From: a virus
DNA length: 64,000 nucleotides
Direction: 5' to 3' (one strand)
IMG/VR virus record: IMGVR_UViG_3300041964_000014
Span: 47,189 to 111,188 of that record
The notes beneath the pieces were generated by a model, which ran no database searches, was not told where the DNA came from, and saw only the letters and a list, made by a program, of their open reading frames with translations. The position numbers were made by a program, and so were the translations under genes. Position 1 is the first letter of the stretch; every line of letters starts with the position of its first letter. Shown here piece by piece: positions 4,106 to 45,878 of this stretch.

Positions 4106-6601
4106 ATGACTAACTACGACGCTTTAAACAAATCTGAACTTTGGGCACTAATCAAGACTCGTCAGAACACTGCGGGTGTACATAGCAGTATCAACGATAT
4201 CGTGTGGCAAACATCTAAGCGCGATATGGTGTATGCGCTTATCTGGGATGATAACCAACATATACACTTACCTGTGCCAGAGGTAGTTAGTGCTGAAGCT
4301 GTTAGTGATGACTTCTCGCTATGGGATGAGATAGTTAGTGAAGCGTTAGGGGAAGAAATAGTCGATAGTACCCCCCCTACCCTTAGCGGAACTGTAGTAC
4401 ACGAACCAACCAACCAAATAATTCCTAAAGCTGATGTGATAACAGAATCACATACATCAACCGAAGTATCTCCCCCAAAACTTGATGTGATAACAAGTAC
4501 CACAAGTACGGTGGATACTACAGAGGTAGCTAACGTAATTACCTCCACAAAAAAATCAACCACTACAAAAGCAAGTGTTAGTTCTGCGAAAGCACTCACA
4601 AATACACCGGATACTGTAATAACCCGTACCACTGTTTACACATGGCAATATTTAGACCATGAGATGAGCGGACGCTGGAAACAGATCACTGAGCAAGAAA
4701 GCATTGAGCAATATATAGAGTTTTTGGAAGCGGTTAACGCTCATTTGCAAGCTAACAATGCTAAGACGTTCTTAGTCAGGAATTGTACTCTATCCGTAAA
4801 AATGAAACCTCGGATAGTAAAAGAGCAAGATGTAAATGGACGTACCTTAAACCGTATAGACCGTTCGGCTCAAAAGAACAATATGTACGATAACCGCAAT
4901 CGTACATCTATGGCTACCACTGAAACAGCTGGTAGAAATATTGGTGAAGCTGCTGTTAAAGCGTCGGTACTGTTTCAAGCTAGTCGCTACATACCTCAAG
5001 CTATTCGGGTAAACAATGCTTGGAATATCGACGGGATTGACACAATAAGTGTTAACGGTAAGCAAGTTTATCCGGTATCGCTTACAGCAGCTATTGACGA
5101 GAGTGAGCCTGTAAATCAAGACTTACCCACTAAGGTGTTGAAACGTCGTGAAATATCGGCAGAGAAAAAGGTTGAAGGTCGTTCTTTCTCTCATATCCGG
5201 GGAAAAATCAACAACGGTTTATCACCATCGTTTAAGGACGGTGATAAGTTCTTCTGCTTTCAAGTAGACAGCAATAACCGAGTGTCGTTGTGGCTACTCT
5301 CTAATGATGTAAACCATACTGTGTCAGCCAGTGATTTAGTTAAGGGTAGGAAGCTAGCCGATATCGGTTACGTAGAGGCACAACCGTATCAAGAGACTGA
5401 ATTTGTCAATGTCACAATGGACATGATTAAAGGAGGGCAAGAAGCACGGGTTGAACGCTTTGACTGGATACGTAAGCAACTAAATAAACAGTGGCTTGAT
5501 TCCGATGAAGCTATTTATCAATTCCTATCCAACCTAAAAAAAGTAAATGGCGAGGCGCTTGTTATCACAAACCTACAAGTTATCGATGGTGTTGTAACTG
5601 GTAACCTGTATGGCAGCAAGCTAATTATCCGTAAGAGAAATGTTACAAAGCATCGTGTAGTATTTCACCCTGTAATCCGTTCGAGCTTTGGAATGGGGGA
5701 GCGCAACAAAAAAACTGGTAGCAAAATCATTAGAGATACTGCTGTAAGTCGTAGCGATGCTTATGACCGCATAATCGCAGCAGCTAATACTTGGCTGTTT
5801 GGGATTGGTGGCAGTGTGCTAAGTGACCTTAACGTGAGGACAGACGGGTTAACACATCGTAACCAGGTAATAGGGTTGCATAACGCTCAACGTAACGCCC
5901 GTACACGGGAAAGGTTTGATGGAACTAAGAAATCGCTTCGCAATCCGAAAGATAGAAAGTACATTGCAAAGCTGCTAACCCGGTTCACTACTAACGGGAT
6001 ATTCACCCGTACAGACGGAGATTACATCGGTAAGCTAACCAAAACAGATGGCTCTCAATTAACCGAGAGCGAGATTACACGCATTACTGAAGTAGTAATG
6101 AACAACTACCCCGTAAATAAACCATTAGCCACTTTATTCACTCCCTCTCACTTTGACTCTCCTGAAGAATGGCAGAGTACATTCCTGAACTTGTTAAAAG
6201 CTTATGGGGATATCGAGGTGGCTATCCTAGAAGATGGCAAACTACTAACATACAACACAGGTAATCAGGTTCTTGAAGGATACGCACGAGAGCTGTACTC
6301 ATATCTGCAAAGTATGGGTAAGGAAGTAGACACACTCACAATGAACGGTGCTATAGAGCTATTACAGATGTCTCCCTCATCACCGTATAAGGAAATTCTG
6401 TTAAGGGTGCCTAACGTAGCACAGCTTAATGGTAGTCAATCCTTGAGATTGTTAGCAGGGCATGACAGAGCTGAGGCAATCGCTCAACGTCGCAAGGAAA
6501 GTATCTACAATCTGACGGTAGGTTTAGAGGTAGCAAAGCTAGACAAAGTAGCTGCTGATAAAGCAGCTAAACTAGCCAAGCTAACGCAACATCTCAAATA
6601 A
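4106..6601 (+). CDS. Large hypothetical protein, 831 aa
   Basis: The longest unrecognised protein in the window. Residues 1-50 (LNKSELWALIKTR, later DMVYALIWDD) have the spacing of a SAP/Rho-N-like helix-extended-helix, a common nucleic-acid-binding module; this is a weak match. Residues about 105-190 are a low-complexity Thr/Ser/Val linker. The remaining 640 residues are mixed alpha/beta, with an Arg/Asn-rich stretch near 250-275 and a basic region near 600-640. Codon use and lack of breaks show it is a real gene. It ends just before a strong terminator. A role in DNA handling or as a minor structural protein is possible but not shown. Confidence 0.8.
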   Translation: MTNYDALNKSELWALIKTRQNTAGVHSSINDIVWQTSKRDMVYALIWDDNQHIHLPVPEVVSAEAVSDDFSLWDEIVSEALGEEIVDSTPPTLSGTVVHEPTNQIIPKADVITESHTSTEVSPPKLDVITSTTSTVDTTEVANVITSTKKSTTTKASVSSAKALTNTPDTVITRTTVYTWQYLDHEMSGRWKQITEQESIEQYIEFLEAVNAHLQANNAKTFLVRNCTLSVKMKPRIVKEQDVNGRTLNRIDRSAQKNNMYDNRNRTSMATTETAGRNIGEAAVKASVLFQASRYIPQAIRVNNAWNIDGIDTISVNGKQVYPVSLTAAIDESEPVNQDLPTKVLKRREISAEKKVEGRSFSHIRGKINNGLSPSFKDGDKFFCFQVDSNNRVSLWLLSNDVNHTVSASDLVKGRKLADIGYVEAQPYQETEFVNVTMDMIKGGQEARVERFDWIRKQLNKQWLDSDEAIYQFLSNLKKVNGEALVITNLQVIDGVVTGNLYGSKLIIRKRNVTKHRVVFHPVIRSSFGMGERNKKTGSKIIRDTAVSRSDAYDRIIAAANTWLFGIGGSVLSDLNVRTDGLTHRNQVIGLHNAQRNARTRERFDGTKKSLRNPKDRKYIAKLLTRFTTNGIFTRTDGDYIGKLTKTDGSQLTESEITRITEVVMNNYPVNKPLATLFTPSHFDSPEEWQSTFLNLLKAYGDIEVAILEDGKLLTYNTGNQVLEGYARELYSYLQSMGKEVDTLTMNGAIELLQMSPSSPYKEILLRVPNVAQLNGSQSLRLLAGHDRAEAIAQRRKESIYNLTVGLEVAKLDKVAADKAAKLAKLTQHLK

Positions 6602-6642
6602 ACCGCTTAGTTATCTACTCTAAAACTGAATACCACTAATTA

Positions 6643-6690
6643 GCTTACCAGGTTAACTCTCTAACGAGGGTTAATTTGGTAGGCTTTTTT
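6643..6690 (+). terminator. Rho-independent terminator
   Basis: A 19-base stem (GCTTACCAGGTTAACTCTC pairing, with G-U wobbles, to GAGGGTTAATTTGGTAGGC) with a short TAAC loop is followed by TTTTTT. It closes the transcription unit of the 831-aa gene. Confidence 0.85.
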
Positions 6691-6741
6691 GTTGTGTGAG
6701 TATGTGCAACTTTTTTCTTTGTTGTTAAAGGTATTAATCGT

Positions 6742-6963
6742 ATGCAAGAACAACCACTAAATCCCGGTCATTATGTTGAGGCTTGCGAAAGAGCTTTTCT
6801 AGCATCTAAATTTCTAGAAACAATAGCAGACCATCCTGTGTTTTTATCTAACACAGAGCTAAAGAAACAATGGGATACTGTGCAAGAACTGGTAGCAGAT
6901 ATCTACCAGCTTGCTGGGACTCTAATGTATTACTCGGAGAATGCAGAGAATAGTCCGAAATAA
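6742..6963 (+). CDS. Hypothetical protein, 73 aa
   Basis: Small, acidic, probably all-helical protein with no family I recognise. It lies between a strong terminator and another small gene. Codon use resembles its neighbours. Confidence 0.6.
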   Translation: MQEQPLNPGHYVEACERAFLASKFLETIADHPVFLSNTELKKQWDTVQELVADIYQLAGTLMYYSENAENSPK

Positions 6964-7076
6964 TGGGGTGGAGTTTTTTTTGTTGTTGTGGGGAATTGTA
7001 TTATGGTTACAATGAGAGCCGTTGTTGAAACTTTAAATGCAGTTAATTTTATAGGTACTAACTGTAGTTTTTTTTC

Positions 7077-7394
7077 ATGCTTAATCCCCCAAACAGTTTA
7101 GATCAAATCAGACAAGCAGTAACGGGAGTATCGTTAGTAGCTGGTCGTAGTACTAATTTAGATACCCTAAAAGCGAATACCAGTATCTGTAGTTACAGTA
7201 GCTACTGCGACAATCTTGTAGTAGGTATAAAGTTTACTTGTTTTAACCTATCTAATTTAAACCAAGTTAAACAAGTAGCTACTACTGTTATTAAGAATGT
7301 GCATCCTAACCCACTACAAATAAAGCCTGTAGTGCTGTTAGAAACAGGGGTTAGTTTTGTTATTGGAGTAACACTAGTAAAGTTGCAGCGATAA
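7077..7394 (+). CDS. Hypothetical protein, 105 aa (start uncertain)
   Basis: Unrecognised protein with several valine-rich segments. The start is uncertain: no ribosome site precedes the ATG at 7077, which sits directly after a run of eight T. A 32-codon frame beginning at 7003 (ATGGTTACAATGAG) runs into that T tract in another frame, so the true gene may start at 7003 and have suffered, or use, a frameshift at the T run. It abuts the next gene by 2 bases. Confidence 0.45.
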   Translation: MLNPPNSLDQIRQAVTGVSLVAGRSTNLDTLKANTSICSYSSYCDNLVVGIKFTCFNLSNLNQVKQVATTVIKNVHPNPLQIKPVVLLETGVSFVIGVTLVKLQR

Positions 7395-7396
7395 GT

Positions 7397-7819
7397 ATGC
7401 CTAAACAACCATCTCGTTTATGGGCTATTGCTGAAGGTACTTACCAACAGCATCAGATCAATGAAGCGCTACTGAAAAATAAATCCCGCCGTGAAGAACA
7501 GAAAAGGTTCGCTGAAAATACACGACGATTTTCTTTGGCACTTACGAAAGTGTTAGGTACACAGCTATATAAGGAGCTTATTTGTTTCGGACTCCGGTAT
7601 GAGTTGCACGACTACAACAACGGATTGCATGGTGCTGAACTACATTTCTGTGAAACATTAGTAGTAATTCTGTTCAACCATAGTTCGCTTAGTTTTGGCT
7701 TAGACGTAGGAGGTAAACGGATATTTAGTATGGAACGGGAGGAGGAATTCAAGACTAAGTTTCTAACTGAACTCGGAAGATTGATTGTGGAGTGTAAGGA
7801 GAAGTATCGGATTAGTTAG
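7397..7819 (+). CDS. Hypothetical protein, 140 aa
   Basis: Unrecognised soluble protein. The N-terminal 45 residues are basic and helical (KNKSRREEQKRFAENTRR), followed by a more ordered region with a histidine-bearing segment (HDYNNGLHGAELHFCETLV). It sits 2 bases after the previous stop and is followed by a copy of the dispersed repeat. Confidence 0.65.
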   Translation: MPKQPSRLWAIAEGTYQQHQINEALLKNKSRREEQKRFAENTRRFSLALTKVLGTQLYKELICFGLRYELHDYNNGLHGAELHFCETLVVILFNHSSLSFGLDVGGKRIFSMEREEEFKTKFLTELGRLIVECKEKYRIS

Positions 7820-7825
7820 GTAATA

Positions 7826-7841
7826 GTCCGAAACAAATAAG
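7826..7841 (+). repeat. Dispersed repeat, single copy (GTCCGAAACAAATAAG)
   Basis: One-base-longer variant of the 15-base motif, between two small genes, with no facing partner arm. Confidence 0.75.
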
Positions 7842-7873
7842 AGAATTTTTTTAGTTAGTAATGGAGTAATCTC

Positions 7874-8083
7874 ATGCGCGTTAAAGTACTCAACAATCGA
7901 ACGATAGTTGGAGATAATCTCCACGATCTTTTAGTCCAAGCTTATGGAGGTACTATCGAGGACTATCAATACGGAGACACTATCGATTCTAAGGAGGAGC
8001 CGTATCGCCACTGTGTACTTTTCAGAAATGGAAAGCAAGAGATGATTCAAAAAGTGAATTTAGTCAATGTAAGAGCTTTGTAG
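7874..8083 (+). CDS. Hypothetical protein, 69 aa
   Basis: Small protein of unknown function preceded by GGAG. Its beta-rich pattern (MRVKVLNNRTIVGDNLHDLL) resembles a small single-domain fold. It is 9 bases upstream of the next gene, so the two are probably co-translated. Confidence 0.6.
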   Translation: MRVKVLNNRTIVGDNLHDLLVQAYGGTIEDYQYGDTIDSKEEPYRHCVLFRNGKQEMIQKVNLVNVRAL

Positions 8084-14278: not shown

Positions 14279-14779
14279 ATGGTTGACCACATAATTAGCA
14301 AAGAATTAGCTAAAGCATTGGCAAGTACCTTAACACCGGGAAGTGACGTTCAAGTTGTGGCAGAAACTACTTATAAGCTTGTGGTATTGGAAGGACGGGG
14401 ATTAAAAGACAACGAAGAATTGTATGTAGTTCCGCCAGACCCTAATTCAGAAGTAGATGAAGACATTCGTAATAATTTCTCGGAAGGTATGTTTCCTCCG
14501 GGAATGCGGCTAAAATTAGCCAGACTGTTACGCCATGTTACGAGAAAACAGCTGACACTGCGACAATGCAAAGAACTATCTGAGTACCTATCTCCGACTA
14601 GTGAAAGCTTTGTACAGCAACTTCAGGGTAAGTACAGCAATTGTAGACCGTTACAAGTAAACAGCTTTACTCAGACTCAAGTAGGGCAGATAGCTCATAT
14701 TATTAGTATTGCGACTAATTACGCTCTGTCGTATGAGGACGCTGCAAAAGTAGCACAGCATATTGTTGATTTGTGGTAG
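14279..14779 (+). CDS. L7/L12-motif protein, paralogue 1
   Basis: 166 residues. Residues about 77-104 (MRLKLARLLRHVTRKQLTLR, then QCKELSEYL) follow the pattern of the ribosomal protein bL12 C-terminal domain, whose hallmark is a helix KIxVIKxVRxxTGLGLKEAKxLV. The paralogue at 15209 matches more closely. The bL12 domain contacts translation factors on the ribosome; whether these proteins do so is inference. N-terminal 40 residues and C-terminal 60 are family-specific. Preceded by AGGAG; followed at once by a zinc-ribbon gene. Confidence 0.65.
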   Translation: MVDHIISKELAKALASTLTPGSDVQVVAETTYKLVVLEGRGLKDNEELYVVPPDPNSEVDEDIRNNFSEGMFPPGMRLKLARLLRHVTRKQLTLRQCKELSEYLSPTSESFVQQLQGKYSNCRPLQVNSFTQTQVGQIAHIISIATNYALSYEDAAKVAQHIVDLW

Positions 14780-14786
14780 TTACAAG

Positions 14787-14909
14787 ATGAAGTGTCAACA
14801 TTGCGGTAGTAGCAATCTTAGTTTCGTGCAAATAATCACTATGTACTCTAAAAAGTACAAGGATTATAGATGTAACGATTGTCGTAAGAACACAGCCTTC
14901 ACAGCATAA
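14787..14909 (+). CDS. Small zinc-ribbon protein, 40 aa
   Basis: The product has two CxxC pairs: CQHCG at residues 3-7 and CNDC at 29-32, spaced as in a zinc ribbon. It lies 7 bases after the previous stop and 5 before the next start, inside one transcript. Such mini-ribbons bind nucleic acid or protein partners; no specific function is known. Confidence 0.6.
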   Translation: MKCQHCGSSNLSFVQIITMYSKKYKDYRCNDCRKNTAFTA

Positions 14910-14914
14910 ACATA

Positions 14915-15145
14915 ATGGAAACTCTCCACAGTCCTAACAGTGATGTATTTAAGTTTGCAGTATTTGATGAAGTGAGTTTCGCCATGTTAGCTAATGTGGC
15001 TAATAAATTGTATTTGTATCGGGGGATAACCCCGAAAGTCTGGAAAGAGTTGCTAGCAGCTGAAAGCAAAGGTAGGTATTTCAATGTGCAAATTAAAGAT
15101 CGGTATCAGACTACGGAGTTAAATAGTCTGGATATTGTGAAGTAA
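14915..15145 (+). CDS. KTSC-domain protein
   Basis: 76 residues. The segment KLYLYRGITPKVWKELLAAE followed by SKGRYFNVQIKDRY matches the KTSC domain, a short beta domain common in phage and bacterial proteins (name from its Lys-Thr-Ser-Cys positions). It is sometimes fused to nucleases or to lysyl-tRNA synthetase-type proteins, but its function alone is unknown. Confidence 0.75.
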   Translation: METLHSPNSDVFKFAVFDEVSFAMLANVANKLYLYRGITPKVWKELLAAESKGRYFNVQIKDRYQTTELNSLDIVK

Positions 15146-15208
15146 CTTGCTTACTACGGGAAATTTCTTCGGGGTGTCTACTATTTACTTACCTAAGGGA
15201 GTTATATC

Positions 15209-15694
15209 ATGTCTACGAATCTTACACTCGACCAAGCCAAACAATTTGCTCAAGCGTTACCCTACGATAGTAACTTAAGGGTAGTTGTCGCTAGTACTGA
15301 GACTTATAAGCTCGTTAATGCTGACGAGTATGCGCCGCAACCGGGAGAATCGTATTGGGCAACAACACCTAGTGTAATAAGTCAGATTCAGAATCGATTT
15401 CCTGAAGGTTATTTGTCTGGCAACTCATGTATCAAATTAATTAAGTTGCTTCGGACTATTGACACCAACTTAGGACTTCGCGAAGCCAAAGATGTTGCCG
15501 ACTACTTACTTCCATCCATAGAGGCGACAAAAGAAAAGTGGAAACAGCAAATCTCAGATAGCACTGCCTTACAGGACAATAAGTTTTTTGGTTGTGATGC
15601 CTCCGCTTTGGAAGACTTAATTGAAATACTCACGAATGATCAGCTTAATTCCGAGGATGTGAAAGAAATTGTGAATGTATTAATCGGTAAGTAA
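15209..15694 (+). CDS. L7/L12-motif protein, paralogue 2
   Basis: 161 residues, same architecture as the gene at 14279. Residues 75-100 (IKLIKLLRTIDTNLGLREAK, then DVADYL) match the bL12 C-terminal helix-turn-helix motif very well, including the GLxEAK core. Start supported by AAGGGAG. An N-terminal remnant of a third copy is at 10188. The function is unknown; interaction with translation factors or with RNA polymerase-like partners is a guess from the fold. Confidence 0.7.
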   Translation: MSTNLTLDQAKQFAQALPYDSNLRVVVASTETYKLVNADEYAPQPGESYWATTPSVISQIQNRFPEGYLSGNSCIKLIKLLRTIDTNLGLREAKDVADYLLPSIEATKEKWKQQISDSTALQDNKFFGCDASALEDLIEILTNDQLNSEDVKEIVNVLIGK

Positions 15695-15708
15695 ACGTTA
15701 AGCAAAGA

Positions 15709-15742
15709 GTCCGAAATAACAAGACACTTATTTATTTCGGAC
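15709..15742. repeat. Inverted pair of the dispersed repeat
   Basis: GTCCGAAATAACAAG facing CTTATTTATTTCGGAC with almost no loop. Confidence 0.85.
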
Positions 15743-15773
15743 TTCTGCATTCCTATTCCAAAAGGAGATTTCT

Positions 15774-16304
15774 ATGTTGGTGCCTAATGTTGCCAGATGT
15801 ATACGCAGCTTGTTTTCTAAGCCTCCTTTGCATTTGAAGCATTCCGATTGGAGCTATGTATTTAAGTGTTCATCTGGGTACGTAATCGCGGGCATCCCTT
15901 TATCGGAAACAACGCGAATTCCGTCGCATAGCTTACTTGTAGAACTTTACGCGGATGAGAAAGGAGACTCGTATCACTTTGGTAAGTTTGCTGACGGCTC
16001 AGTAATACAACTCAATCCGGTACATTGGTCAGAAACACCTCCACAGCTAGTTTGGCATCCCCCTGATTTTGATATTTGGGATAAGTTATCTGTAGCAGGA
16101 TTAGCTCCGAGATACCCTAAAGAGCAAATAGATAAAGCTTGTCAAGCCGAGAAAACACTTAAAGAAGCTTACTCACAGTATGAAGCCACAATGAAACAGT
16201 TGGGAGCTGAACTAGTAGATGAACGTTGGGAAAACTTGGAATGCTATCAATTTCCTACCCATCCGTTAATAGAGTTTTATGCTGACTCCGAATTAGGAGA
16301 ATAA
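15774..16304 (+). CDS. Hypothetical protein, 176 aa
   Basis: Unrecognised soluble protein, tryptophan- and proline-rich in the middle, with a helical stretch near residues 120-145. Preceded by AAAGGAG. Confidence 0.65.
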   Translation: MLVPNVARCIRSLFSKPPLHLKHSDWSYVFKCSSGYVIAGIPLSETTRIPSHSLLVELYADEKGDSYHFGKFADGSVIQLNPVHWSETPPQLVWHPPDFDIWDKLSVAGLAPRYPKEQIDKACQAEKTLKEAYSQYEATMKQLGAELVDERWENLECYQFPTHPLIEFYADSELGE

Positions 16305-16310
16305 GTTTAT

Positions 16311-16529
16311 ATGAATATCCGTATAACTGCCAAGAAAGTACTGTGGGCTTCAGTGCATAGAACTGGGGAGTCTAAGCTTCAAGCGGGAGAGTCAGCCACA
16401 ATTACCAAAGCCGTGGTAGCTCACCCGACTAATCCTCTGTATGAGGTGACTAAAGCGGATGGTAAACAATTTGTGGTGTATCGTGACGATTTAGTTGAAT
16501 GTGGGGCTTTAGATAGAATACCGGAATGA
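16311..16529 (+). CDS. Hypothetical protein, 72 aa
   Basis: Small beta-rich protein (SATITKAVVAHPTNPLYEV) of unknown function, 6 bases after the previous stop. Confidence 0.55.
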   Translation: MNIRITAKKVLWASVHRTGESKLQAGESATITKAVVAHPTNPLYEVTKADGKQFVVYRDDLVECGALDRIPE

Positions 16530-16536
16530 TGTAATA

Positions 16537-16551
16537 GTCCGAAACAATAAG
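16537..16551 (+). repeat. Dispersed repeat, left flank of the 16601 gene
   Basis: GTCCGAAACAATAAG. A reverse copy lies at 16893-16907, so one gene sits between inverted copies. Confidence 0.85.
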
Positions 16552-16600
16552 GGTGTGTTTGCTACTTCCGATGTTGTTATTTAATGGTAAGGAGTTACTA

Positions 16601-16873
16601 ATGACGGCTACCGTAATATACGTTGCGAGTTTAGTGGTATTAAAATTAGATGGTACTATTCACACTAAACCAGTTATTAGTAACCCCGCAGCTTATTCCT
16701 CCTTGTCAAGTTTTGTTGAGAGTTGTGTTACCAATATTAAAAGTGTGGCGGAGTTTAGTAATACTAAAATAGTGGGTTGTTTTGCTCATGAGGTACTCGA
16801 TATTAGTACTGGTAAAGTAATGGTATTAGATGAGGTTAGTTTTATGGAGGATAATAGACCAACTATCAATTAA
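16601..16873 (+). CDS. Hypothetical protein, 90 aa, between inverted repeats
   Basis: The start at 16601 is set by AAGGAG 7 bases upstream. The pattern (TVIYVASLVVLKLDGTIHTK) is beta-rich with no recognised family. The gene is flanked by facing copies of the 15-base motif (16537 and 16893), as though it were a discrete cassette. Confidence 0.6.
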   Translation: MTATVIYVASLVVLKLDGTIHTKPVISNPAAYSSLSSFVESCVTNIKSVAEFSNTKIVGCFAHEVLDISTGKVMVLDEVSFMEDNRPTIN

Positions 16874-16892
16874 GCCCCGCAGTTAGGTAGTC

Positions 16893-16907
16893 TTTATTGT
16901 TTCGGAC
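16893..16907 (-). repeat. Dispersed repeat, right flank of the 16601 gene
   Basis: TTTATTGTTTCGGAC, reverse orientation. Confidence 0.8.
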
Positions 16908-16941
16908 ACTTAGTAGTTAGCAAGTTAAAAAGGGTAAGACT

Positions 16942-17280
16942 ATGGATGAGAATTACAAACGTAAATGGCAAGAAGCTCTACGCAATGGGGGCTATCTTAA
17001 AACAGAAGGGGTACTAAGAGATAGTACTACTGGAATGCCTTGTTTTTGTGCAGTAGGAGTATTAGCAGATATCTTTGTTCAAGAATCCGATAACTATTAC
17101 TGGGATGAGGATGACTATTTAGTGGATAAGACTACTAAGCTTAAGTATTACGATAGTTTACCAAGAGAGGTATTGAGCATGATAGGATTAGAAGCTTATG
17201 ACGAGTGTGTCATAACTGCAATAAATGATAAAGAAGATACGGATTTTGATCAAGTAGCCGATGCACTAGAAAGATATTAA
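16942..17280 (+). CDS. Conserved phage protein of unknown function, 112 aa
   Basis: The pattern WQEALRNGGYLKTEGVLRD, then CFCAVGVLADI, then a C-terminal ITAINDKEDTDFDQVADALE recurs in many tailed phages as a small protein of unknown function (opening W..AL.sG.Y.Q..G.L, closing ND..... F..IA..IE). No enzymatic motif is visible. Confidence 0.75.
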   Translation: MDENYKRKWQEALRNGGYLKTEGVLRDSTTGMPCFCAVGVLADIFVQESDNYYWDEDDYLVDKTTKLKYYDSLPREVLSMIGLEAYDECVITAINDKEDTDFDQVADALERY

Positions 17281-19139: not shown

Positions 19140-19283
19140 ATGATGATGTTAGTACCTGCATCTACACACAAGGCATTGCACGAGATTTCCAGACTTTACA
19201 GAGTTAGTGTGCTGGATTTAATCAACTTTCATGGCAGCATATCTCAGGTACTAGAAGACTATGGATACGAATACTGCGATTGA
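19140..19283 (+). CDS. Small hypothetical protein, 47 aa
   Basis: Starts after TAAGGAG. The product (HKALHEISRLYRVSVLDLIN) looks like a small helical, possibly HTH-like peptide. It overlaps the next gene by 23 bases. Confidence 0.5.
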   Translation: MMMLVPASTHKALHEISRLYRVSVLDLINFHGSISQVLEDYGYEYCD

Positions 19284-19611
19284 AATCTATCACAAAGATG
19301 TTAGCTACAGTTTAGTTGTAGCTAAACGTCCTATCACAATGATGTTCTTGTATCGGATCGTTAGGTTCGCATACAATGAATCATTATACAGCTACGTCCG
19401 AAATAATCAGAGCGATAATTCTGATTACTACATTCCTGGTTTAGGGGCATTTCAATTGCAAGCACTAGATCCGGGTACTGACATCACAGTCGTTCGATTA
19501 GGTGGTCATCCTGTTTCTCTTGCACGGTACTTAACACCTATGCTAGGATATACTCCAGAACTCTGGAGTGAGGAACAAGTGTTTGAGCAATTTTTGGCTC
19601 AAACCGCATAG
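19261..19611 (+). CDS. Hypothetical protein, 116 aa
   Basis: Unrecognised protein directly upstream of the ubiquitin-like cassette. A copy of the dispersed repeat (GTCCGAAATAATCAG, 19396-19410) lies in frame inside it. A role with the cassette is not implied by sequence. Confidence 0.6.
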   Translation: MDTNTAIEIYHKDVSYSLVVAKRPITMMFLYRIVRFAYNESLYSYVRNNQSDNSDYYIPGLGAFQLQALDPGTDITVVRLGGHPVSLARYLTPMLGYTPELWSEEQVFEQFLAQTA

Positions 19612-19663
19612 AACAAAGTTACGAGTTTCACTGTACACACTGTTTACTTAGAGGTTCTTTCTC

Positions 19664-20047
19664 ATGGCTAACACTAACTTTTTCGGTCGTTTCATCAATC
19701 GTGCAGCTGAAGTTGTTTTTGGTGCTAATGAATCTGATGTACAACAACCAACACTGTCTGTCGAATCATTGCAAGTTGAGCAAATCGAAAAAGATGACGC
19801 GGCTAAAACAGTTACTTTACGGGCACAAGTCGGACTTACTCCAATTGAACTTACAGTCCCCGTGGGTACAACTTACTTGGAAATGATTGAGCTTTCCAAA
19901 AAGCAAGTGCCGGGATTAAATGTCTCAGCTGAGTCCGTGACTATCTTAAATACGGATACTAATGTAACGGTGCCCAACAATGCAATGACAACTCCAGTAC
20001 AGGAAGGTAACTACTCCTTCGAGTCTACTAGCGGTACTGCGGGTTAG
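19664..20047 (+). CDS. Ubiquitin-like protein 1 (PRTRC-C-like)
   Basis: 127 residues ending in ...STSGTAG with the final glycine as the last residue, so no processing is needed to expose it. A family of small beta-grasp proteins ending in GTKG is known from PRTRC cassettes. The N-terminus carries a short extension (NFFGRFINRA) shared with the second copy, followed by a domain with alternating strands and one helix (TYLEMIELSKKQVPG), consistent with the beta-grasp fold. Downstream genes supply protease, E2-like and E1-like partners. Predicted role: a modifier attached to a target through its C-terminal glycine. The fold is inferred from pattern and context. Confidence 0.75.
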   Translation: MANTNFFGRFINRAAEVVFGANESDVQQPTLSVESLQVEQIEKDDAAKTVTLRAQVGLTPIELTVPVGTTYLEMIELSKKQVPGLNVSAESVTILNTDTNVTVPNNAMTTPVQEGNYSFESTSGTAG

Positions 20048-20077
20048 AGATTGATTTAGTTCCGTCTACTGATTGAG

Positions 20078-20104
20078 ATACAGGGGATTATACATCTCCT
20101 GTAT
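20078..20104 (+). terminator. Hairpin between the two Ubl genes
   Basis: ATACAGGGGA pairs with TCTCCTGTAT (one wobble), followed by TTCTTGTTTGTTT. It would reduce read-through from the first Ubl gene. Confidence 0.6.
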
Positions 20105-20158
20105 TTCTTGTTTGTTTGTATAACGTCCACATTCAACTACAAAAGAACGAGAATCACT

Positions 20159-20524
20159 ATGGCTATCAATAACTTCTTCGGTCGCTTCGTTTCCAACTTC
20201 GCCCCTAAGTCCAACGAAGTCTCATTGCCTGTAGAGTCAGTAACTGCCGATATCGAAACAATCTCCGAGAACAAAGAAGATAAGACTGTGACTGTCTCGG
20301 TTACTTATAAATTCACCAGCGAGACATTTACGGTGGCTGTGGGAACGACAATGAACAATTTGTTCAAGTTAATTGCTGCTAAGTTCTCTATTGGCTCACT
20401 CGATGCAGTGGCTATTCTTAATACTGAAACCAATAGTGTTGCAAAGCTAGCCGATGTGCAGGAAACCCCGATCACCGAAGATACTTCTCTGTCTATCGAA
20501 GACACCAGTGGTACAGCTGGTTAA
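20159..20524 (+). CDS. Ubiquitin-like protein 2 (PRTRC-C-like)
   Basis: 121 residues, paralogue of the gene at 19664. It opens NNFFGRFVSNF, has the same strand-helix-strand pattern (VGTTMNNLFKLIAAKF), shares the SxxSVAILNTxTN core, and ends DTSGTAG. The ATG at 20159 is chosen because homology to copy 1 begins there. Sequence differs from copy 1 over much of the middle, so the two may have distinct targets or form a heteromer. Same predicted role as copy 1. Confidence 0.75.
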   Translation: MAINNFFGRFVSNFAPKSNEVSLPVESVTADIETISENKEDKTVTVSVTYKFTSETFTVAVGTTMNNLFKLIAAKFSIGSLDAVAILNTETNSVAKLADVQETPITEDTSLSIEDTSGTAG

Positions 20525-20567
20525 TCTGGTAGCAATCAGATAGAGGATAAAGGCGCGTAGTTAATCC

Positions 20568-20598
20568 GGTCTGGGAGTGTAGTGCTTCCAGACCTTTT
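20568..20598 (+). terminator. Hairpin after the second Ubl gene
   Basis: GGTCTGGGAG pairs with CTTCCAGACC (one G-U), followed by TTTT. It may attenuate expression of the enzyme genes relative to the Ubl genes. Confidence 0.65.
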
Positions 20599-20620
20599 CT
20601 GTAATGTTTAGGAGACACAA

Positions 20621-21526
20621 ATGAGACTTATTAACGGAATGCGTGTTCGGCTAGCTACGGAATATCCGTATGGTAGTTATATCGCCAGAGATACTACCCC
20701 CGAAGAAGGTGGGCTAGAATTCGAGGCTTTGAATTATCTAGACCCTAATCCCGATCTACCGAAAATCCCCCAACAACTGTTTCGTAAGCTGAGTAAGTTC
20801 TTCTACGATTACGCATCTAAATCTCTGGAGGTTCACGCACGAGTAGTATATAACCCTCGTGATAAAAGTTTCCGGGTGTTTGTCCCAACACAAACAATTG
20901 CCGGAGCTAGTGTTGACCACTTTGAATACTCCCATGCCGTAGACCTGGAGACGGGAGAATCAGTATCTCTTCCACACAAAGACTACGCTACTCTGTGGCA
21001 GTTTCATGTGCATCCGTTTGCAATGCCGGGACCTTCTAGTATCGACGATAACGGTTTTCCAAACCAGCCAGGTACTGGAGAACTTGATCGCCCCGGTGGA
21101 TATGGGATATTCAGTTGTTGGAATAAGAACAAAGACGGATATGCTATTTTCACCCTTCGCTGTAACGTAGTTGTTTCGGACGGATTTAAAACCCGTAACA
21201 AGAGACTAGACATTGCTACTAGCGATGTAGTTGAAGGTGTTGAAGATGGTGAGCAGATACTTGTATACAATGTGCCTTACAGTGAATTAGCACATAGTGT
21301 TGTGTCTAGATATATACCAAAGCCTCAAGCGAAAGTAAAAGGCGGCGTTAATCTACTTAACGTCCAGTATCTGCCTAAGAATTTTGTTTCCCAAGCACAA
21401 GCATCAGACTATCTAGCGTTAGATAGCGTAATACACTCTCACTCTTTAGAGGAAGTGTTAATGGCACTTCAGATTAAGTACGACAAGGCTCAAATAGAAA
21501 CAGCACTGAATACAATGTTTGGCTGA
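20621..21526 (+). CDS. JAB/JAMM metalloprotease (PRTRC-A-like)
   Basis: 301 residues. The JAMM zinc-binding motif is complete: HVHPFAMPGPSSID at residues 129-142, the exact HxHP-x6-SSxD spacing of deubiquitinases such as Rpn11. An upstream Glu (E70 in SLEVHARVVY) is the likely catalytic acid. JAB proteases remove or process ubiquitin-like proteins from targets; the Ubl proteins here end in the exposed glycine, so deconjugation is the more likely job. It follows the two Ubl genes and lies 5 bases before the E2-like gene. The C-terminal 100 residues are family-specific. Confidence 0.85.
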   Translation: MRLINGMRVRLATEYPYGSYIARDTTPEEGGLEFEALNYLDPNPDLPKIPQQLFRKLSKFFYDYASKSLEVHARVVYNPRDKSFRVFVPTQTIAGASVDHFEYSHAVDLETGESVSLPHKDYATLWQFHVHPFAMPGPSSIDDNGFPNQPGTGELDRPGGYGIFSCWNKNKDGYAIFTLRCNVVVSDGFKTRNKRLDIATSDVVEGVEDGEQILVYNVPYSELAHSVVSRYIPKPQAKVKGGVNLLNVQYLPKNFVSQAQASDYLALDSVIHSHSLEEVLMALQIKYDKAQIETALNTMFG

Positions 21527-21531
21527 TCAAT

Positions 21532-22305
21532 ATGGTACAAGTTACTACTCCACCTAACATACAAGCTATTGTGACTGTATCTGATTCTGATGAAGATACT
21601 GTTGCAAGAGGGATGATTCTATTGTGTGATGAAATTGATGTGCGCCTACAAGTCCGCCGTGGTGTACTGTCGGAGGCAATATACTACGAGCGTTGCAGAA
21701 ACTGCAAAACCAGGGCACAGAATAAGTGCATTGGGGGAATGAAAATAATCAAAGACCATCTGTGTCCCGAAGGTGTAACTGCAAGATCCGAAATAGCATA
21801 TATCCCCAAAAGATTACCTCAGCACATTGTGTACATTGATGGATCTCTGGAATACTATCTCTTTGTAGTTGAAGGGGAGATAACACCGGAAGGGAATCTC
21901 AGGGTATTTCCCATGATGCTAGGTAACATAACTACATACGGCTCACTTTGTTCTGGAAATATGAGAACAAGGAGATGGAATTTCGCTGAATCATATGCAG
22001 CTATTTGGCAGCTGCTATGGACTGGCGATTACAACTATACAGAGCATTCTATTGCTCAGCTAATCGAGAACTGGTCTCCGGAATGGCAGAAAGAAAACTA
22101 CAGATACGATGATCTAGATACACTGTACAAAGACTTGTTTAGTTTAGTGGGAATACGTTCCTTAGATCAGACAGTAATAAGGCAGCCGGGTACTTACGAT
22201 ATATACAATGCTCGTGAGCTTTACTCAAGCAAAGTATCGGAACTGATAAAAGACGGATATGAATACTTGAACTGCCGAGTGCTAGGCAAAAGGATAGATA
22301 GCTAA
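21532..22305 (+). CDS. E2-like protein (PRTRC-B-like)
   Basis: 257 residues. In PRTRC cassettes, protein B has an E2-like fold. The segment NITTYGSLCSGNMRTRRWNF places a cysteine (C140) after the central strands in a position matching the LC.GN motif of that family, the candidate thioester cysteine. A separate Cys cluster (CRNCKTRAQNKC, residues 55-66) is unusual and could bind metal. It overlaps the E1-like gene by 1 base, so expression is coupled. The assignment is by motif and order, since sequence similarity to classical E2 enzymes is weak. Confidence 0.65.
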   Translation: MVQVTTPPNIQAIVTVSDSDEDTVARGMILLCDEIDVRLQVRRGVLSEAIYYERCRNCKTRAQNKCIGGMKIIKDHLCPEGVTARSEIAYIPKRLPQHIVYIDGSLEYYLFVVEGEITPEGNLRVFPMMLGNITTYGSLCSGNMRTRRWNFAESYAAIWQLLWTGDYNYTEHSIAQLIENWSPEWQKENYRYDDLDTLYKDLFSLVGIRSLDQTVIRQPGTYDIYNARELYSSKVSELIKDGYEYLNCRVLGKRIDS

Positions 22306-23192
22306 TGCAACTCAATCAAACAACTTTGTATGTGGTAGGTTGTGGTGGAACGGGAGGTCGTTTGCTAGACTTACTAGCGGACTATTTTGCCTTTAGCCAC
22401 AACTACCCTAATCGTATAGTTCTAGTAGACGATGACAAAATCGAAGAACGCAATGCCGAAAGACAGGTGTTTGACAGATTAGACGCAGGTAGATATAAAG
22501 TAGAAGTACTTAAAGACCGATTTATTACAAAGTCCGGGTTTGGTCGTGTAGAAGCGCTTCCCGTAAAGTGGACACCTGAAACACTTCCCCATGATTTGGG
22601 GAAAATGTCGGAGGCAGGAGCTTCTATCAGTTTGTTTATCTGCATAGACAATGCAAGGGGGCGTAACGCACTGTGGTCGTATATAGTGGGATATTACGAC
22701 TCAGTTAAGCGGGAGTACGAGAAAGCCGAAGTTGCATACAAAGGTAACTTTCTTATCGTAGATGGTGGGAATGGCACGTATGATGGTCAGGTAACTACTT
22801 GCTTACGGGTGCGCTACGAAAACTTTGACTGCATTTTAGGGCAAGACCCTAGAGTTCTTTTCGAGAACGTTCGTAACGCAGATCCCCGAATCACGGGTTG
22901 TGCCGCTGCCGAGGGCGATGACGTTGCCCAAACAGTGATGGCAAATATGCAAGTAGCCACACTTATGTTTAGTGAATTTGTTAGTGCAATAACCACTCAC
23001 AAATTTCAACCGTTAATCAAGTTTGATTTACAGCAACGTCGAATGTTACCTGTCGGCGCAATGTGCGACTTGGGTGCTGAATACACGGCATTCATCACCG
23101 AAAAAACAGCCGCACTAGAAGCAGCCGCTAACACTCAAATAGTTGAGACTGCTGAAGCTACGACCGAAACAGTAATTGAAGTCACCGTTTAG
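22305..23192 (+). CDS. E1-like/ThiF-family adenylyltransferase (PRTRC ThiF-like)
   Basis: 295 residues with a Rossmann nucleotide-binding loop VVGCGGTGGRLLDLLA (GxGGxG at residues 12-17). It is followed by the ThiF/E1 acidic motif VLVDDDKIEERNAERQVF and a second substrate region (FICIDNARGR). GCAAAEGDDVAQTVMANMQV near residues 198-217 matches the C-terminal Cys region of PRTRC ThiF proteins; C199 may carry a thioester. E1-like enzymes adenylate the C-terminal glycine of the modifier before transfer. It is the enzyme expected to activate the two Ubl proteins. Confidence 0.85.
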   Translation: MQLNQTTLYVVGCGGTGGRLLDLLADYFAFSHNYPNRIVLVDDDKIEERNAERQVFDRLDAGRYKVEVLKDRFITKSGFGRVEALPVKWTPETLPHDLGKMSEAGASISLFICIDNARGRNALWSYIVGYYDSVKREYEKAEVAYKGNFLIVDGGNGTYDGQVTTCLRVRYENFDCILGQDPRVLFENVRNADPRITGCAAAEGDDVAQTVMANMQVATLMFSEFVSAITTHKFQPLIKFDLQQRRMLPVGAMCDLGAEYTAFITEKTAALEAAANTQIVETAEATTETVIEVTV

Positions 23193-23203
23193 TGAGAAAT
23201 ACC

Positions 23204-23809
23204 ATGAACCAAGAATTGTACACCAGACTAATCGACCAAGGAATGAATGAAGAAGCTGCTAGTGCAATAGCCGCTGACTTTAGCCAAGTGACTCGTGCAA
23301 AGAAACTACCTAAGCAAACACTATCTACTTGGTCAGACGAGTATGTTGCGGCATCGGCTAAGTTGCGTTTACAAGCTATATCTTCTTTAATCGCAGTCTT
23401 AGGATTGCAACCATCTCCTCAAATGGTAATGGAAGTAAAAAACTTTGAACCCGAAACCATTGAAATACTACGACGACTAGGGGCTTTAATGGAGAGCAAA
23501 TGGATAACAATGCGAAACACAGGAGGCAAGTTGCAAGAACTAGCAAATGAGCTAAATGGCAATAAGGGTAAAAAGCCTATAGTCCAAGCCTCCGAAGATG
23601 TTGACGAGATGTTGAACTTAGTATCTTCCGTGGTAATACCAACAAGTGAAATAGAGGAGTCCGAAATAAAAAAGGAGGAGGGTGATTTGGAGTCTGTTGA
23701 TGCTTTGGCACTAGCAGAACTTGAGGATAAAACCGATACACCTGAAACCTCGGAGATGTTAGGTATGGGCGCGTTGCCGGACGATTTCGACGTGTCTAAG
23801 TTCTACTAA
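23204..23809 (+). CDS. Companion of the Ubl cassette, 201 aa, unknown
   Basis: Co-directional with, and directly after, the E1-like gene; an in-frame GTG at 23192 overlaps that gene's stop. Residues about 8-30 (TRLIDQGMNEEAASAIAADF) look like the first helices of a UBA-type three-helix bundle, a ubiquitin-binding fold, but this is a weak pattern match. The C-terminal half is acidic and disordered and includes VVIPTSEIEESE, a hydrophobic patch beside acids as in SUMO-interacting motifs. The gene contains a copy of the dispersed repeat (23659). Possible Ubl target or adaptor; not proven. Confidence 0.6.
   Translation: MNQELYTRLIDQGMNEEAASAIAADFSQVTRAKKLPKQTLSTWSDEYVAASAKLRLQAISSLIAVLGLQPSPQMVMEVKNFEPETIEILRRLGALMESKWITMRNTGGKLQELANELNGNKGKKPIVQASEDVDEMLNLVSSVVIPTSEIEESEIKKEEGDLESVDALALAELEDKTDTPETSEMLGMGALPDDFDVSKFY
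23659..23675 (+). repeat. Dispersed repeat inside a gene
   Basis: GTCCGAAATAAAAAAGG, in frame (SEIKK) within the 201-aa gene. Confidence 0.75.
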
Positions 23810-23873: not shown

Positions 23874-25328
23874 ATGGTTGATAAGTTAGTGTTAGAGCAG
23901 TATCTTTTAGATACTTTAAAACAAAATAAAGAACTGTTTGATTTAGTAGTAAATAAACAATACATACTATACGGAGAGTATTTAGGCACATTACTGGTTA
24001 ATAAAGTAATGCAGCTAAATTATTCGTTACCTAAGCCTACCTTACTTCGTTTAGATCCTACTAATAAAACTAATGGATATTCAGAGGTAATAGAATATCC
24101 TACATACGTTATTAGTATTACTTCTAATATAGGTTTACTGGATAGTTGTACTAATTTTAATAGTTGCTTTATTACTAGTACTGATGTTGTTATTTCAGAT
24201 AGCTTTGTAGAACTACTAAATACCAAACAATTAGAGATAGTTAATATTAATCCGCTATCGAAAGCTTTAGCAGAGTTAGTTTATCTAGCCGATAGGTACA
24301 AGGGATACTTATATGCTAATATTACCAAAGCTATTGCAATGGCTAAAGATATTAGCAGGTTAATGGCTTCTCCAGAATGCAGTTTAATTACTTCAAACAC
24401 TAACGCTGGTATATTAAAAACACTAACCGATATTGAAATTAAATGGGTTACTTTAGATGTCTACAAAGACTCGTTAGTACCTTTAGTCGTGCTTCCTGAA
24501 GTATCGTTATTACCGGATAATATTTCCAAATACTCTAAAAGCCATCTTGCCCATGATGATACTTTATCTCAATGTTATTTAGCATTAGCTAATTGCTTAT
24601 ACGGTAACGGTGTTAAAAAGTCTGCTAGAGAAAACAAGTTAATAGTATTAGAATATCCTGAACTATACCCGTATGTTGTAAGTAACCTTAGTTACACAGA
24701 TAATCTACCTAACAATTGGAAAGCCAAACTACCTTACTTAAACAAGCTTTTAGCAGAACACAATGTAAGGCTATTTTTTAATAAGCTTAATTTAGCAGAA
24801 CAAATACAGTTACTAGATGAGTTGCGTGGATTAATTAAACAATACGGCTTATGGGTAATTGGTTTATTAGAGCAACAATCTAAATACGATAAAAAAGAGT
24901 TAGTTAAACTAATAGAGTTTAAAAAACTAGAAAATAGCAAATGGTTAGTTCCTCCGTTTAAGCTCCCGGAAATATTCCCATTTGGACTACATAAAACATG
25001 GAAAATAGTTGAGTTAAATACACGCCAACTACTAATACATGAAGGCGAATACCAAGGGCATTGCGTAGGAGGATACAGTGTATCTCCAGCGCATAGAATC
25101 TTCTCATTGAGGAAAGATAAGCTTCGCTATACTCTAGAGATATATTACGATACCTACAAACACAAGTGGATAACAGGACAAGAGCGAGGAAAACATAATT
25201 CCTTGCTAGAAAGTATTGAACCAATCACACAACAAGAACTACGGATTATAATTCCGTGGTTACTCTCAGTACTACCTAGGGTAACTGTTTCTCCGAGTAC
25301 AACAAGCAACGACTACATATACTTTTGA
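23874..25328 (+). CDS. PcfJ-like protein
   Basis: 484 residues. The C-terminal 130 residues carry the PcfJ-type signature: HKTWKIVELNTRQLLIHEG, then GHCVGGYSV, IFSLRKDKLRYTLEIY and WITGQERGKHN, matching the EG..HCVG.Y / SLR...TLEI / G..N pattern. The first 350 residues are helical and rich in Leu/Lys/Asn. PcfJ homologues occur on conjugative plasmids and phages; their biochemical role is unsettled. It is the next gene after the Ubl cassette, so a link to it is possible but could be coincidence. Confidence 0.8.
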   Translation: MVDKLVLEQYLLDTLKQNKELFDLVVNKQYILYGEYLGTLLVNKVMQLNYSLPKPTLLRLDPTNKTNGYSEVIEYPTYVISITSNIGLLDSCTNFNSCFITSTDVVISDSFVELLNTKQLEIVNINPLSKALAELVYLADRYKGYLYANITKAIAMAKDISRLMASPECSLITSNTNAGILKTLTDIEIKWVTLDVYKDSLVPLVVLPEVSLLPDNISKYSKSHLAHDDTLSQCYLALANCLYGNGVKKSARENKLIVLEYPELYPYVVSNLSYTDNLPNNWKAKLPYLNKLLAEHNVRLFFNKLNLAEQIQLLDELRGLIKQYGLWVIGLLEQQSKYDKKELVKLIEFKKLENSKWLVPPFKLPEIFPFGLHKTWKIVELNTRQLLIHEGEYQGHCVGGYSVSPAHRIFSLRKDKLRYTLEIYYDTYKHKWITGQERGKHNSLLESIEPITQQELRIIIPWLLSVLPRVTVSPSTTSNDYIYF

Positions 25329-36743: not shown

Positions 36744-36775
36744 TATTGTTTTGTGTATATAAAAAGGAAATTATT

Positions 36776-37519
36776 ATGTTACAAGTAATTGAAAAGAATA
36801 GTGTTTTAGTAGTAGACTCTCGTTTAATTGCCGAAGAATTGGGAATAGAACATCGTAGTTTTAAAGATACTATCCAGGTTAATGCTTCAGATTTAGAGGA
36901 ACATTTTGGACAGTTGCGGCGTGAAACCGCACCGTCAAAAGCTAATGGTGGTGGGGGTTTTGGAGAAACGTACTATTTGCTAACAGAAGAACAAGCCACT
37001 TATTTGATGACTCTTTCTCGTAATACTGAGCAAGTCAAGAAAGCCAAGCTTAATTTAGTTAAAGCCTTTAGTGCGGCTAAACAATCCTTAATCGTAACTC
37101 CTAGCAAAGAAATAACACAGTTATTAACTACACTAATTAATAACCAACAAAATCAGGCACAGCAATTAGCTACATTAACTGAACGTACACAACGTTTAGA
37201 TACTGTAGAACAAGAGAAAGCACAATTAGCTAACCAACTTACAGAGTTTAATGTAGCTGGCTCAATACATCAAGGTTGTTACAATATTATTCGTGCCGAG
37301 ATTAATCAACAAACTATAGTACTGATTACTGCTACAGATTACTTATTAGAAAACGGTAAATCAATAACTTACTCAAAACTACTCGCTCGACGTGCTGCTA
37401 GTTTGTATCGTTGTAGTAGAAAAGCCGAACCATTTAAAAACAAACAAAATCAAATGTTATTTGAACGTAAATATCTTGATGAAGCCATAACATCTATATC
37501 CGATTTGTTAGTAGATTAA
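36776..37519 (+). CDS. Rha-family phage regulatory protein with shared C-terminal module
   Basis: 247 residues from the ATG at 36776 (AAGGAAA upstream). Residues 1-105 match Rha: VVDSRLIAEELGIEHRSFKD, then YLLTEEQATYLMTLSRNTEQ and VKKAKLNLVKAFSAAK. Then a coiled coil, then the shared module (HQGCYNII, LLARRAASLYRCSRKAE, YLDEAITS). Rha proteins in lambdoid phages interfere with growth in certain hosts; here they are probably transcription or host-interaction regulators. Confidence 0.85.
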   Translation: MLQVIEKNSVLVVDSRLIAEELGIEHRSFKDTIQVNASDLEEHFGQLRRETAPSKANGGGGFGETYYLLTEEQATYLMTLSRNTEQVKKAKLNLVKAFSAAKQSLIVTPSKEITQLLTTLINNQQNQAQQLATLTERTQRLDTVEQEKAQLANQLTEFNVAGSIHQGCYNIIRAEINQQTIVLITATDYLLENGKSITYSKLLARRAASLYRCSRKAEPFKNKQNQMLFERKYLDEAITSISDLLVD

Positions 37520-45800: not shown

Positions 45801-45878
45801 ACATATGTGCGCGAAGGTTATAATGCGTCTAACACAATGACAGTAGCTCCGATGAGTGGGACAAAGCCGCTGAATTAG
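42855..45878 (+). CDS. nrdJ: Class II (B12-dependent) ribonucleotide reductase with intein
   Basis: Reduces ribonucleotides to deoxyribonucleotides using adenosylcobalamin. Seen: GRSYWVAGTEQ, RCGSATWNCCF, FNPCHEASLDSHQSCNL and TLVKPEG (host exon), later TLSQLPTVSSGIGKAY. The exteins join as KPEG-TLSQ, a known RNR intein site. After the intein the reductase continues for about 115 residues, then the frame shifts near 45833-45878. The stop at 45876-45878 comes before the C-terminus, so the C-terminal part is in the next feature. No separate small subunit is needed for class II, which suits this lone gene. Confidence 0.92.
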   Translation: MDLLSQESYLKYYQLINPQYISWDFYSQYLDKEPPFGELGAIVFLRTYSRFVLELKRREKFAETCLRVVEYSLSLDTVSDTYALREEAEQLFDCLFSLRGFASGRSYWVAGTEQTKRCGSATWNCCFRTMDSISAFSEVFYWLLLGAGVGFSVENKYVSKLPTFNTQVEIKHTPYIFNQSYYPNTLIYPNESRLDGYTLTDTDLVVSDAEFLQHWGFQDEEHFTVIVGDSKEGWCTALRVLLYLLTLPNTKSITFNYNNVRPKGERIKVFGGRASGHQNLQDVLQRTHDIVCESKGKLNSLNVLDEVNTIGVGVVSGGVRRTAEIALGDADDTYFIEAKQDLWTDESKAKYRNIRVMSNNSVVFYENPGLEKIREIVRRIQTNGEPGFSIVGNAQKHDPNIKGFNPCHEASLDSHQSCNLVTENLVAHIFDGLLDYALLQDTLRLITRVACRQTTASQWHPQWDAVQKRDRLIGVSMTGVEDAFDILNWGDEQKADFYNWAADIVRDEADKYNAHLGIEKSKRVTLVKPEGCEVIESLRVFNEGILRIDEIDSNISNKTGFYKNTVSLTTTHWNDKVSSLFNNGLSDIAEITLNNGRKLKTTVEHRFHVQGTWKRVLDLTIGDVLDVELGSYQNKNNTPMYVPTNGTGLKKVSLPTRMSEPLAWFLAAIYANGSTSTRGYVDFCSGHLLVCTKFKQIVKQLFGVNVEFKKDSIKDMYRTRINSVDIWQYLKENNCLKSDQFDRVPLVVRKSSRQSVLAFVAGYLDTDGCFKNKTCAITSTKLDFARNLQEVCEAVGLSFSAYETKRETTKGECHYIDLQLSRTFSTKDAIDYINQNCIKAQEHPILYSSKSHKNPYKVKSITLLDNLEMTYDIEVENSHCYLNGGIKSHNTLSQLPTVSSGIGKAYAPYYLRRIRFSSLDPLALALYQQGVPVVPENGQGDDLFSEKCNTWVFTFPIKTNAKIRAIDEPIEEQFKRYLLVQNTYVREGYNASNTMTVAPMSGTKPLN
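44448..45524 (+). other. Intein with LAGLIDADG homing endonuclease, inside nrdJ
   Basis: About 359 residues (protein positions 532-890). It begins CEVIESLRVFNEGIL with a catalytic Cys, has the block-B-like TVEHRFHV, LAGLIDADG-type motifs WFLAAIYANGS and VAGYLDTDGCF, and ends CYLNGGIKSHN before a threonine +1 residue. Terminal HN and Cys/Thr junctions are those expected for self-splicing. It should excise itself from the reductase. Confidence 0.92.

Follow-up and report, generated by a model that had tools for sequence, protein, structure and literature searches.

Several prokaryotic systems combine a ubiquitin-like protein (Ubl) with enzymes that act on it. The type 6d operon of Iyer 2006 includes genes for a Ubl, a JAB protease, an activating enzyme (E1), a conjugating enzyme (E2) and a helical protein (PMC1779556), and the Pfam families Prok_Ub, Prok-JAB and Prok-E2_D correspond to it. 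A comparable cassette, PRTRC (TIGR03736-03738), is carried by plasmids, e.g. pQBR103. Ubls are also the basis of host defence systems, such as CBASS (PMC10097602) and Bil (cited in PMC12660748). In phage lambda, the tail assembly proteins TAPI (a Ubl) and TAPK (a JAB protein) are encoded in the tail module without an E1 or an E2 (PMC1779556). The present analysis concerns a 64 kb stretch of viral DNA, hereafter the window (G000:C1:47189-111188 of a viral record of 111,188 bases in total), in which a run of genes had been predicted to form a complete ubiquitin-like conjugation cassette. The closest known kind is the Ubl/JAB/E1/E2 operon of row 6d, together with PRTRC.

The record belongs to a tailed phage, as indicated by genes for the terminase large subunit (4e-96), the major head protein (6e-18), a head maturation protease (6e-5), DNA polymerase A (1e-42) and an intein-containing ribonucleotide reductase. 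Its module of interest is formed by a gene for a 116-aa protein, two Ubl genes (Ubl1 and Ubl2), and genes for a JAMM (JAB) metallopeptidase, an E2-like protein, an E1/ThiF-like protein and a companion; all lie on the plus strand in an apparent operon (19261-23809), with one-base overlaps at the E2/E1 and E1/companion junctions. All features placed by the original prediction are present where it had put them, and the genes assigned to 19664-23809 stand; the start does not, since the conserved module begins one gene earlier. The probability that this module represents a phage-encoded Ubl conjugation pathway of the 6d/Prok-E2_D (PRTRC-like) type is estimated at about 0.74. This reading is supported by leave-one-out profiles, invariant catalytic residues, synteny with a second phage (locus L038) and a common Ubl C-terminus, and the sequence evidence is stronger than the fold predictions. 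Gene content, conserved catalytic residues, retention of the module in the second phage and complete cassettes in relatives are direct observations.

The E1/ThiF-like protein, originally recognised by its GxGGxG motif, contains GCGGTGG and VDDDKIEERNAERQ and matches ThiF (PF00899, E=9.5e-16), which confirms that assignment. It also matches PRTRC_ThiF (4.2e-11) and the PRTRC ThiF genes found on plasmids, and G12, G14, G17, D42, K65, D115 and C199 are invariant in nine E1s from phages and plasmids. As in 6d operons, it is a ThiF-like protein with nucleotide-site residues and a conserved cysteine, and has no rhodanese domain. In the E1 tree, phage and plasmid rows are interleaved and the window and L038 sequences share a long branch, with an unreliable deep order. 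Comparison of the E1 profile with PDB sequences gave MccB as the best match, with ThiF and MoeB lower down, and the first PDB match of the Ubl model was MoaD. These matches would fit small-molecule or peptide chemistry, in which the E1 activates a Ubl for sulfur transfer (as with ThiS or MoaD) or modifies a peptide (as with MccB or PaaA). Such a role is nevertheless improbable, given that an E2 with an invariant cysteine and a JAMM protease accompany the E1, that no sulfur-metabolism genes were recognised near the cassette, that the E1 lacks a CxxC zinc motif of the MoeB/ThiF kind, and that relatives possess tandem Ubl precursors.

The E2-like protein had been proposed from an LCxGN motif, and at sequence level the proposal holds. 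Its active-site segment, GNITTYGSLCSGN, has the arrangement N132-x7-C140-x-G142, and these three residues do not vary in the 20 E2s aligned. The spacing in GNITTYGSLC fits the HPN...C segment of eukaryotic E2s (UBE2D), with the asparagine eight residues before the cysteine. The match to Prok-E2_D (3.7e-4) is below the gathering score, and a hidden Markov model (HMM) built from 32 E2s with this lineage excluded recovers the window protein at 5.3e-5; the corresponding leave-one-out comparison of profiles by hhalign gave 9.6e-7. An E2 fold is weakly predicted, in that the first eight Foldseek matches of its low-confidence model in the PDB are all eukaryotic E2s, the best at E 0.06; with the E2 profile, only chance matches to PDB sequences were obtained. 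The N-terminal part has a motif, C55-x2-C58-x7-C66-x11-C78 (window 21693-21767), which is common to the window E2 and both E2s of L038 and is lineage-specific, being absent from the other E2s of the alignment; it is probably a metal site.

The prediction of a JAMM protease with an HxH...SxxD motif was likewise borne out. The motif reads H129-V-H131-x7-S139-x2-D142, with an upstream glutamate (E70), and E70, H129, H131, S139 and D142 are invariant across the 19 JAB proteins aligned. Pfam Prok-JAB matches 17 of these 19; the window protein itself had no Pfam match, and was found at 7.9e-9 by a leave-one-out HMM and at 2.7e-9 by leave-one-out hhalign. Its N-terminal region aligns with relatives; as in 6d operons, the JAB has both its catalytic motif and an N-terminal domain. 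An hhalign value of 1.5e-37 (alignment A8 versus A3) was discarded as circular, A3 containing the query, and the leave-one-out tests were used instead.

What each enzyme does, and that the bond formed is covalent, we infer from these sequences. The E1 would adenylate either Ubl at its C-terminal glycine and then hold that Ubl as a Cys199 thioester; the Ubl would be handed to Cys140 of the E2, which would attach it to target proteins, and the JAMM protease would take it off again. Where relatives have tandem or tailed Ubls, a second task of the JAMM protease would be to release mature Ubl from the precursor by cleavage behind GTKG.

The two small proteins are, as first described, paralogues that end in TSGTAG (39-42% identity). 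An AlphaFold 2 (AF2) model of Ubl1, with a mean pLDDT of 62, has an extra strand followed by b-b-a-b-b-a-b, i.e. the beta-grasp order, and its PDB matches (best E 0.04) also list SUMO, ISG15 and ubiquitin; a beta-grasp fold is weakly predicted. With this and the E2 model, the cassette reading withstands, if weakly, the structural check that had been proposed along with it. Open reading frames (ORFs) ending in GTxG numbered 12 among 3,427, versus 0.76 expected, in loci picked by their E1 (L038 by its JAB), and all 12 are cassette Ubl genes, both window Ubls included. The GTxG ending of the cassette Ubls is not due to chance.

Several observations weigh against a conjugation pathway of this type. 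In profile comparisons the window Ubls matched neither Prok_Ub nor the other phage Ubls (probabilities of 0.5% and 0.8%), so that the C-terminal GTxG test matters and the small proteins are identified by their topology, their C-terminus and the position of their genes. They end in a single glycine, not in GG. AF2 confidence is modest (pLDDT 62 for the Ubl and 50 for the E2). The window E1 and E2 are far from characterised members (the E1 has at best 27-29% identity outside its lineage), and the window/L038 lineage has not conserved the histidine that lies downstream of the cysteine in 6d E2s: H172 is present in the window E2 and missing in both L038 E2s and in several phage E2s. The lack of a significant link to Prok_Ub would also be expected if the small proteins were not the modifiers and the E1, E2 and JAMM worked with another, unlinked or host Ubl. 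This is very improbable, as the small proteins hold the same operon position, are conserved as a pair in L038, have beta-grasp topology and share the GTxG ending that is so over-represented among cassette Ubls.

L038 is the one near relative found, in a record of 127,110 bases whose terminase is 68% identical to that of the window phage. Single-protein scans of viral contigs with the E1 and with the E2 found no relative, the JAMM protein led to L038 only, and a distant blastn among phages found none. Gene order is as in the window: the 116-aa gene, a pair of Ubls with SSGTAG at each C-terminus, the JAMM gene, two E2s, the E1 and the companion; four small ORFs separate the Ubl pair from the JAMM gene. 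The two E2 paralogues are adjacent (L038:8929-10449) versus a single E2 in the window, and with two E2s beside two Ubls, E2-Ubl pairing is possible. Identity to the window proteins is 60% for the JAMM protein, 55% for the E1, 26-29% for the E2 paralogues and 28% for the companion. Synonymous change exceeds nonsynonymous change, most clearly for the E1, the JAMM protein and the L038 Ubl pair; window and L038 compared, the proportions of synonymous and nonsynonymous differences (pS/pN) are 0.78/0.33 for the E1 and 0.79/0.32 for the JAMM protein, a large excess of synonymous divergence, and both genes are under purifying selection.

The E2, Ubl and companion diverge fast (26-42% identity versus 68% for terminase), and Ubl-based host defence is known in CBASS and Bil. 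It might therefore be proposed that the JAMM protein and the Ubl/E2 homologues strip host conjugates or poison a host cascade (CBASS Cap2/Cap3, Bil), with no pathway of their own. Such counter-defence is unlikely: the E1 and E2 active sites are complete, the Ubl, E2, JAMM and E1 genes are kept together, a decoy or lone protease would need no E1 plus E2, and the same gene set on plasmids shows no sign of this role.

Phage-borne cassettes, of which versions with duplicated modifiers had been called little described, proved not to be rare. An E1-based scan from a three-row alignment reached at least 25 viral contigs, and E2, JAB and E1 occur together in at least about 20 viral records (contigs and phage isolates) beyond the window lineage, including Salmonella phage Arash and Bacillus phage KLEB27-3. 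Vibrio phage D69 has an E2 and a JAB, with an E1 that is partly open in the ORF set yet matched by tblastn; Acinetobacter phage ME3 has, as far as found, an E1 and a JAB only. Lone PRTRC_A or ThiF annotations already exist in cultured phages. The Ubls of these other cassettes end in GTKG, that of Arash in RTGTKG, and in five loci they are tandem genes (Table 1), each repeat of which ends in GTKG or GVKG and shares 48-100% identity with the first; linkers or short tails are frequent, and the Ubls of L028/L030 and L024 have longer tails beyond GTKG. The tandem genes encode polyubiquitin-like precursors. The simplest explanation for such precursors, with their linkers or tails, is a protease with its cleavage site behind the glycine, an obvious role for JAMM. 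The window phage, on the other hand, encodes its Ubls in two unlinked genes, each with glycine as its last codon.

With regard to targets, conjugation of the Ubls to phage or host proteins is most likely. The cassette adjoins virion genes in Arash-like phages and lies before replication genes in the window, and in L002 a DnaN-like clamp gene, recognised by eye, is next after the E1; these surroundings weakly favour targets encoded by the element itself. Virion or replication proteins made in infection are accordingly a tentative preference over host proteins, which are only slightly less probable, and this is the least certain part of the proposal. A specific connection between cassette and sliding clamp (DnaN-like in L002, dnaN or dnaX nearby on plasmids) was considered and rejected, as it does not apply to the window. 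In Arash, Gp246-249 and Gp251, from the cassette region, are among the 116 proteins detected in the particle proteome (PMC10585845), and the GenBank record labels the E1 (gp246c) and the E2 (gp248c) as 'structural protein'; protein numbering in the paper and in the record may be off by one. Cassette proteins are thus produced in infection. As the authors of that study point out, enzymes that are abundant without being part of the virion may be purified along with particles (PMC10585845), and the peptides therefore show expression, not incorporation. That tailed phages run a complete Ubl pathway of their own, with duplicated or tandem, JAMM-matured modifiers that tag virion or replication (or host) proteins, is a proposition for which we give even odds.

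If the pathway works, a bacterial virus has genes for all steps of a ubiquitin-like cascade, the function of the PRTRC/6d family could be tested where infection is short and the proteome defined, and a simple system would be available for the origin of ubiquitin signalling. It would represent the viral equivalent of ubiquitin/SUMO signalling, polyubiquitin-style precursors included. The tandem Ubl genes of two cultured phages, Vibrio D69 and Bacillus KLEB27-3, have their parallel in polyubiquitin genes. Bacteria deploy Ubl conjugation against phages, and phages with the same chemistry would alter how that conflict is read.

Table 1. Features of the cassette module in the window and tandem Ubl genes of related loci.
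Feature	Coordinates	Strand	Remarks
Upstream 116-aa protein	19261..19611	+	homologue at same place in L038, E=1.5e-16, 38% identity
Ubl1, 127 aa, C-terminus TSGTAG	19664..20047	+	beta-grasp model, MoaD top PDB match, paralogue of Ubl2
Terminator-like hairpin 3' of Ubl1	20075..20107	+	14-pair stem, T-rich tail
Ubl2, 121 aa, C-terminus TSGTAG	20159..20524	+	paralogue of Ubl1; two L038 homologues
Terminator-like hairpin 3' of Ubl2	20568..20594	+	12-pair stem, TTTTCTGTAA tail
JAMM/JAB metallopeptidase, predicted Ubl processing/deconjugating	20621..21526	+	invariant JAMM residues, leave-one-out HMM, hhalign
E2-like conjugating protein, putative catalytic Cys140	21532..22305	+	Prok-E2_D, leave-one-out HMM, hhalign, invariant N132/C140/G142
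E1/ThiF-like putative Ubl-activating enzyme, candidate thioester Cys199	22305..23192	+	ThiF PF00899, PRTRC_ThiF
Companion, 205 aa	23192..23809	+	homologue right behind E1 in L038, E=1.8e-21, 28% identity
Tandem Ubl, 5 repeats	L029:3586-4692		upstream of E2/JAB/E1
Tandem Ubl, 3 repeats (Vibrio phage D69)	L045:1397-2188		upstream of E2/JAB/E1
Tandem Ubl, 3 repeats (Bacillus phage KLEB27-3)	L046:3-425		upstream of E2/JAB/E1
Tandem Ubl, 2 repeats	L022:4079-4459		upstream of E2/JAB/E1
Tandem Ubl, 2 repeats	L033:4248-4688		upstream of E2/JAB/E1

Within the module, Ubl2 is taken to start at ATG 20159, and an alternative TTG (20108) opens a longer frame; for the companion, ATG at 23204 is a likelier start than 23192. 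The hairpins that trail the Ubl genes would allow more modifier than enzyme to be made. Library scans gave no family match for the 116-aa protein or the companion, and neither is related to PRTRC protein E; comparison of the companion, which is kept in L038, gave no link to the alpha-helical fifth protein of 6d operons.

Elsewhere in the phage, a PcfJ-like protein (window 23874-25328; E=1e-4, under the cut-off) is encoded directly 3' of the module and has no homologue at the L038 locus. The ribonucleotide reductase (class II-like; window 42855-45878) has an intein bearing a LAGLIDADG domain, and a separate overlapping ORF (window 45878-46129) seems to continue its C-terminus. Antirepressor/Rha-like paralogues (MLEIQN..GQLLVDSRL[IV]AE.LGI) are dispersed over the genome (G000:C1:1250-2011, 4532-5233 and 7088-7804; window 36746-37519 and 49453-50196). 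Outside the window, at G000:C1 about 8573-45180, nine proteins, mostly amid head and tail genes, have a common N-terminal leader, (L)(F/Y)(I/L)SDI...FARKKGSKDKKKR, which resembles a capsid-targeting or protease-cleaved leader; leader proteins are located at L004:8573-8767 and 14431-15369, L005:5651-5854, 7536-7886 and 15628-17264, and L006:4847-5431 and 6262-7180.

A search of the literature, with preprints and most subscription journals outside its reach, found no description of complete phage-borne PRTRC/Ubl-E1-E2 cassettes or of their tandem Ubls. The kind of system itself is already known. Like Bil, the Cap2-Cap3 pair of type II CBASS and the eukaryotic-like ubiquitination operons of bacteria, the cassette combines an E1, an E2 and a JAMM protein that act on a Ubl or Ubl-like terminus. 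Those systems serve host defence. The window E1 is a separate short ThiF protein that matches fused E1-E2 models weakly (best 1e-8, covering the ThiF core), and this separate short E1 and the phage location argue against membership of Bil or CBASS. Phage lambda resembles the window phage in encoding a Ubl plus a JAB, but TAPI and TAPK differ in the lack of E1 and E2 and in their tail-module location. The PRTRC plasmid cassette is closer, with an E1 match of 4e-11 to PRTRC_ThiF and the shared order Ubl-(JAB/other)-E2-ThiF. Unlike PRTRC, however, the window lacks ParB and protein E (neither these nor the 480-aa PRTRC gene was found in any ORF of the record, which may be incomplete), and its bit scores are far under the curated cut-offs (42.6 versus 144.75 for ThiF, 13.4 versus 131.45 for protein B); the absence of ParB and the missed cut-offs point to a divergent, phage-borne variant. 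As in the 6d operons, the genes are separate, a small putative Ubl ends in glycine, the JAB has an N-terminal domain, the E2 is of family D (without the HPN histidine, with asparagine and cysteine kept), the E1 is rhodanese-less and an additional uncharacterised protein is encoded. The window differs from 6d in being phage-borne, in its two Ubl genes with N-terminal extensions of about 40 aa, in the N-terminal Cys4 motif of its E2 (two E2s in the relative) with a downstream histidine that is not conserved, and in sequences too distant for curated cut-offs.

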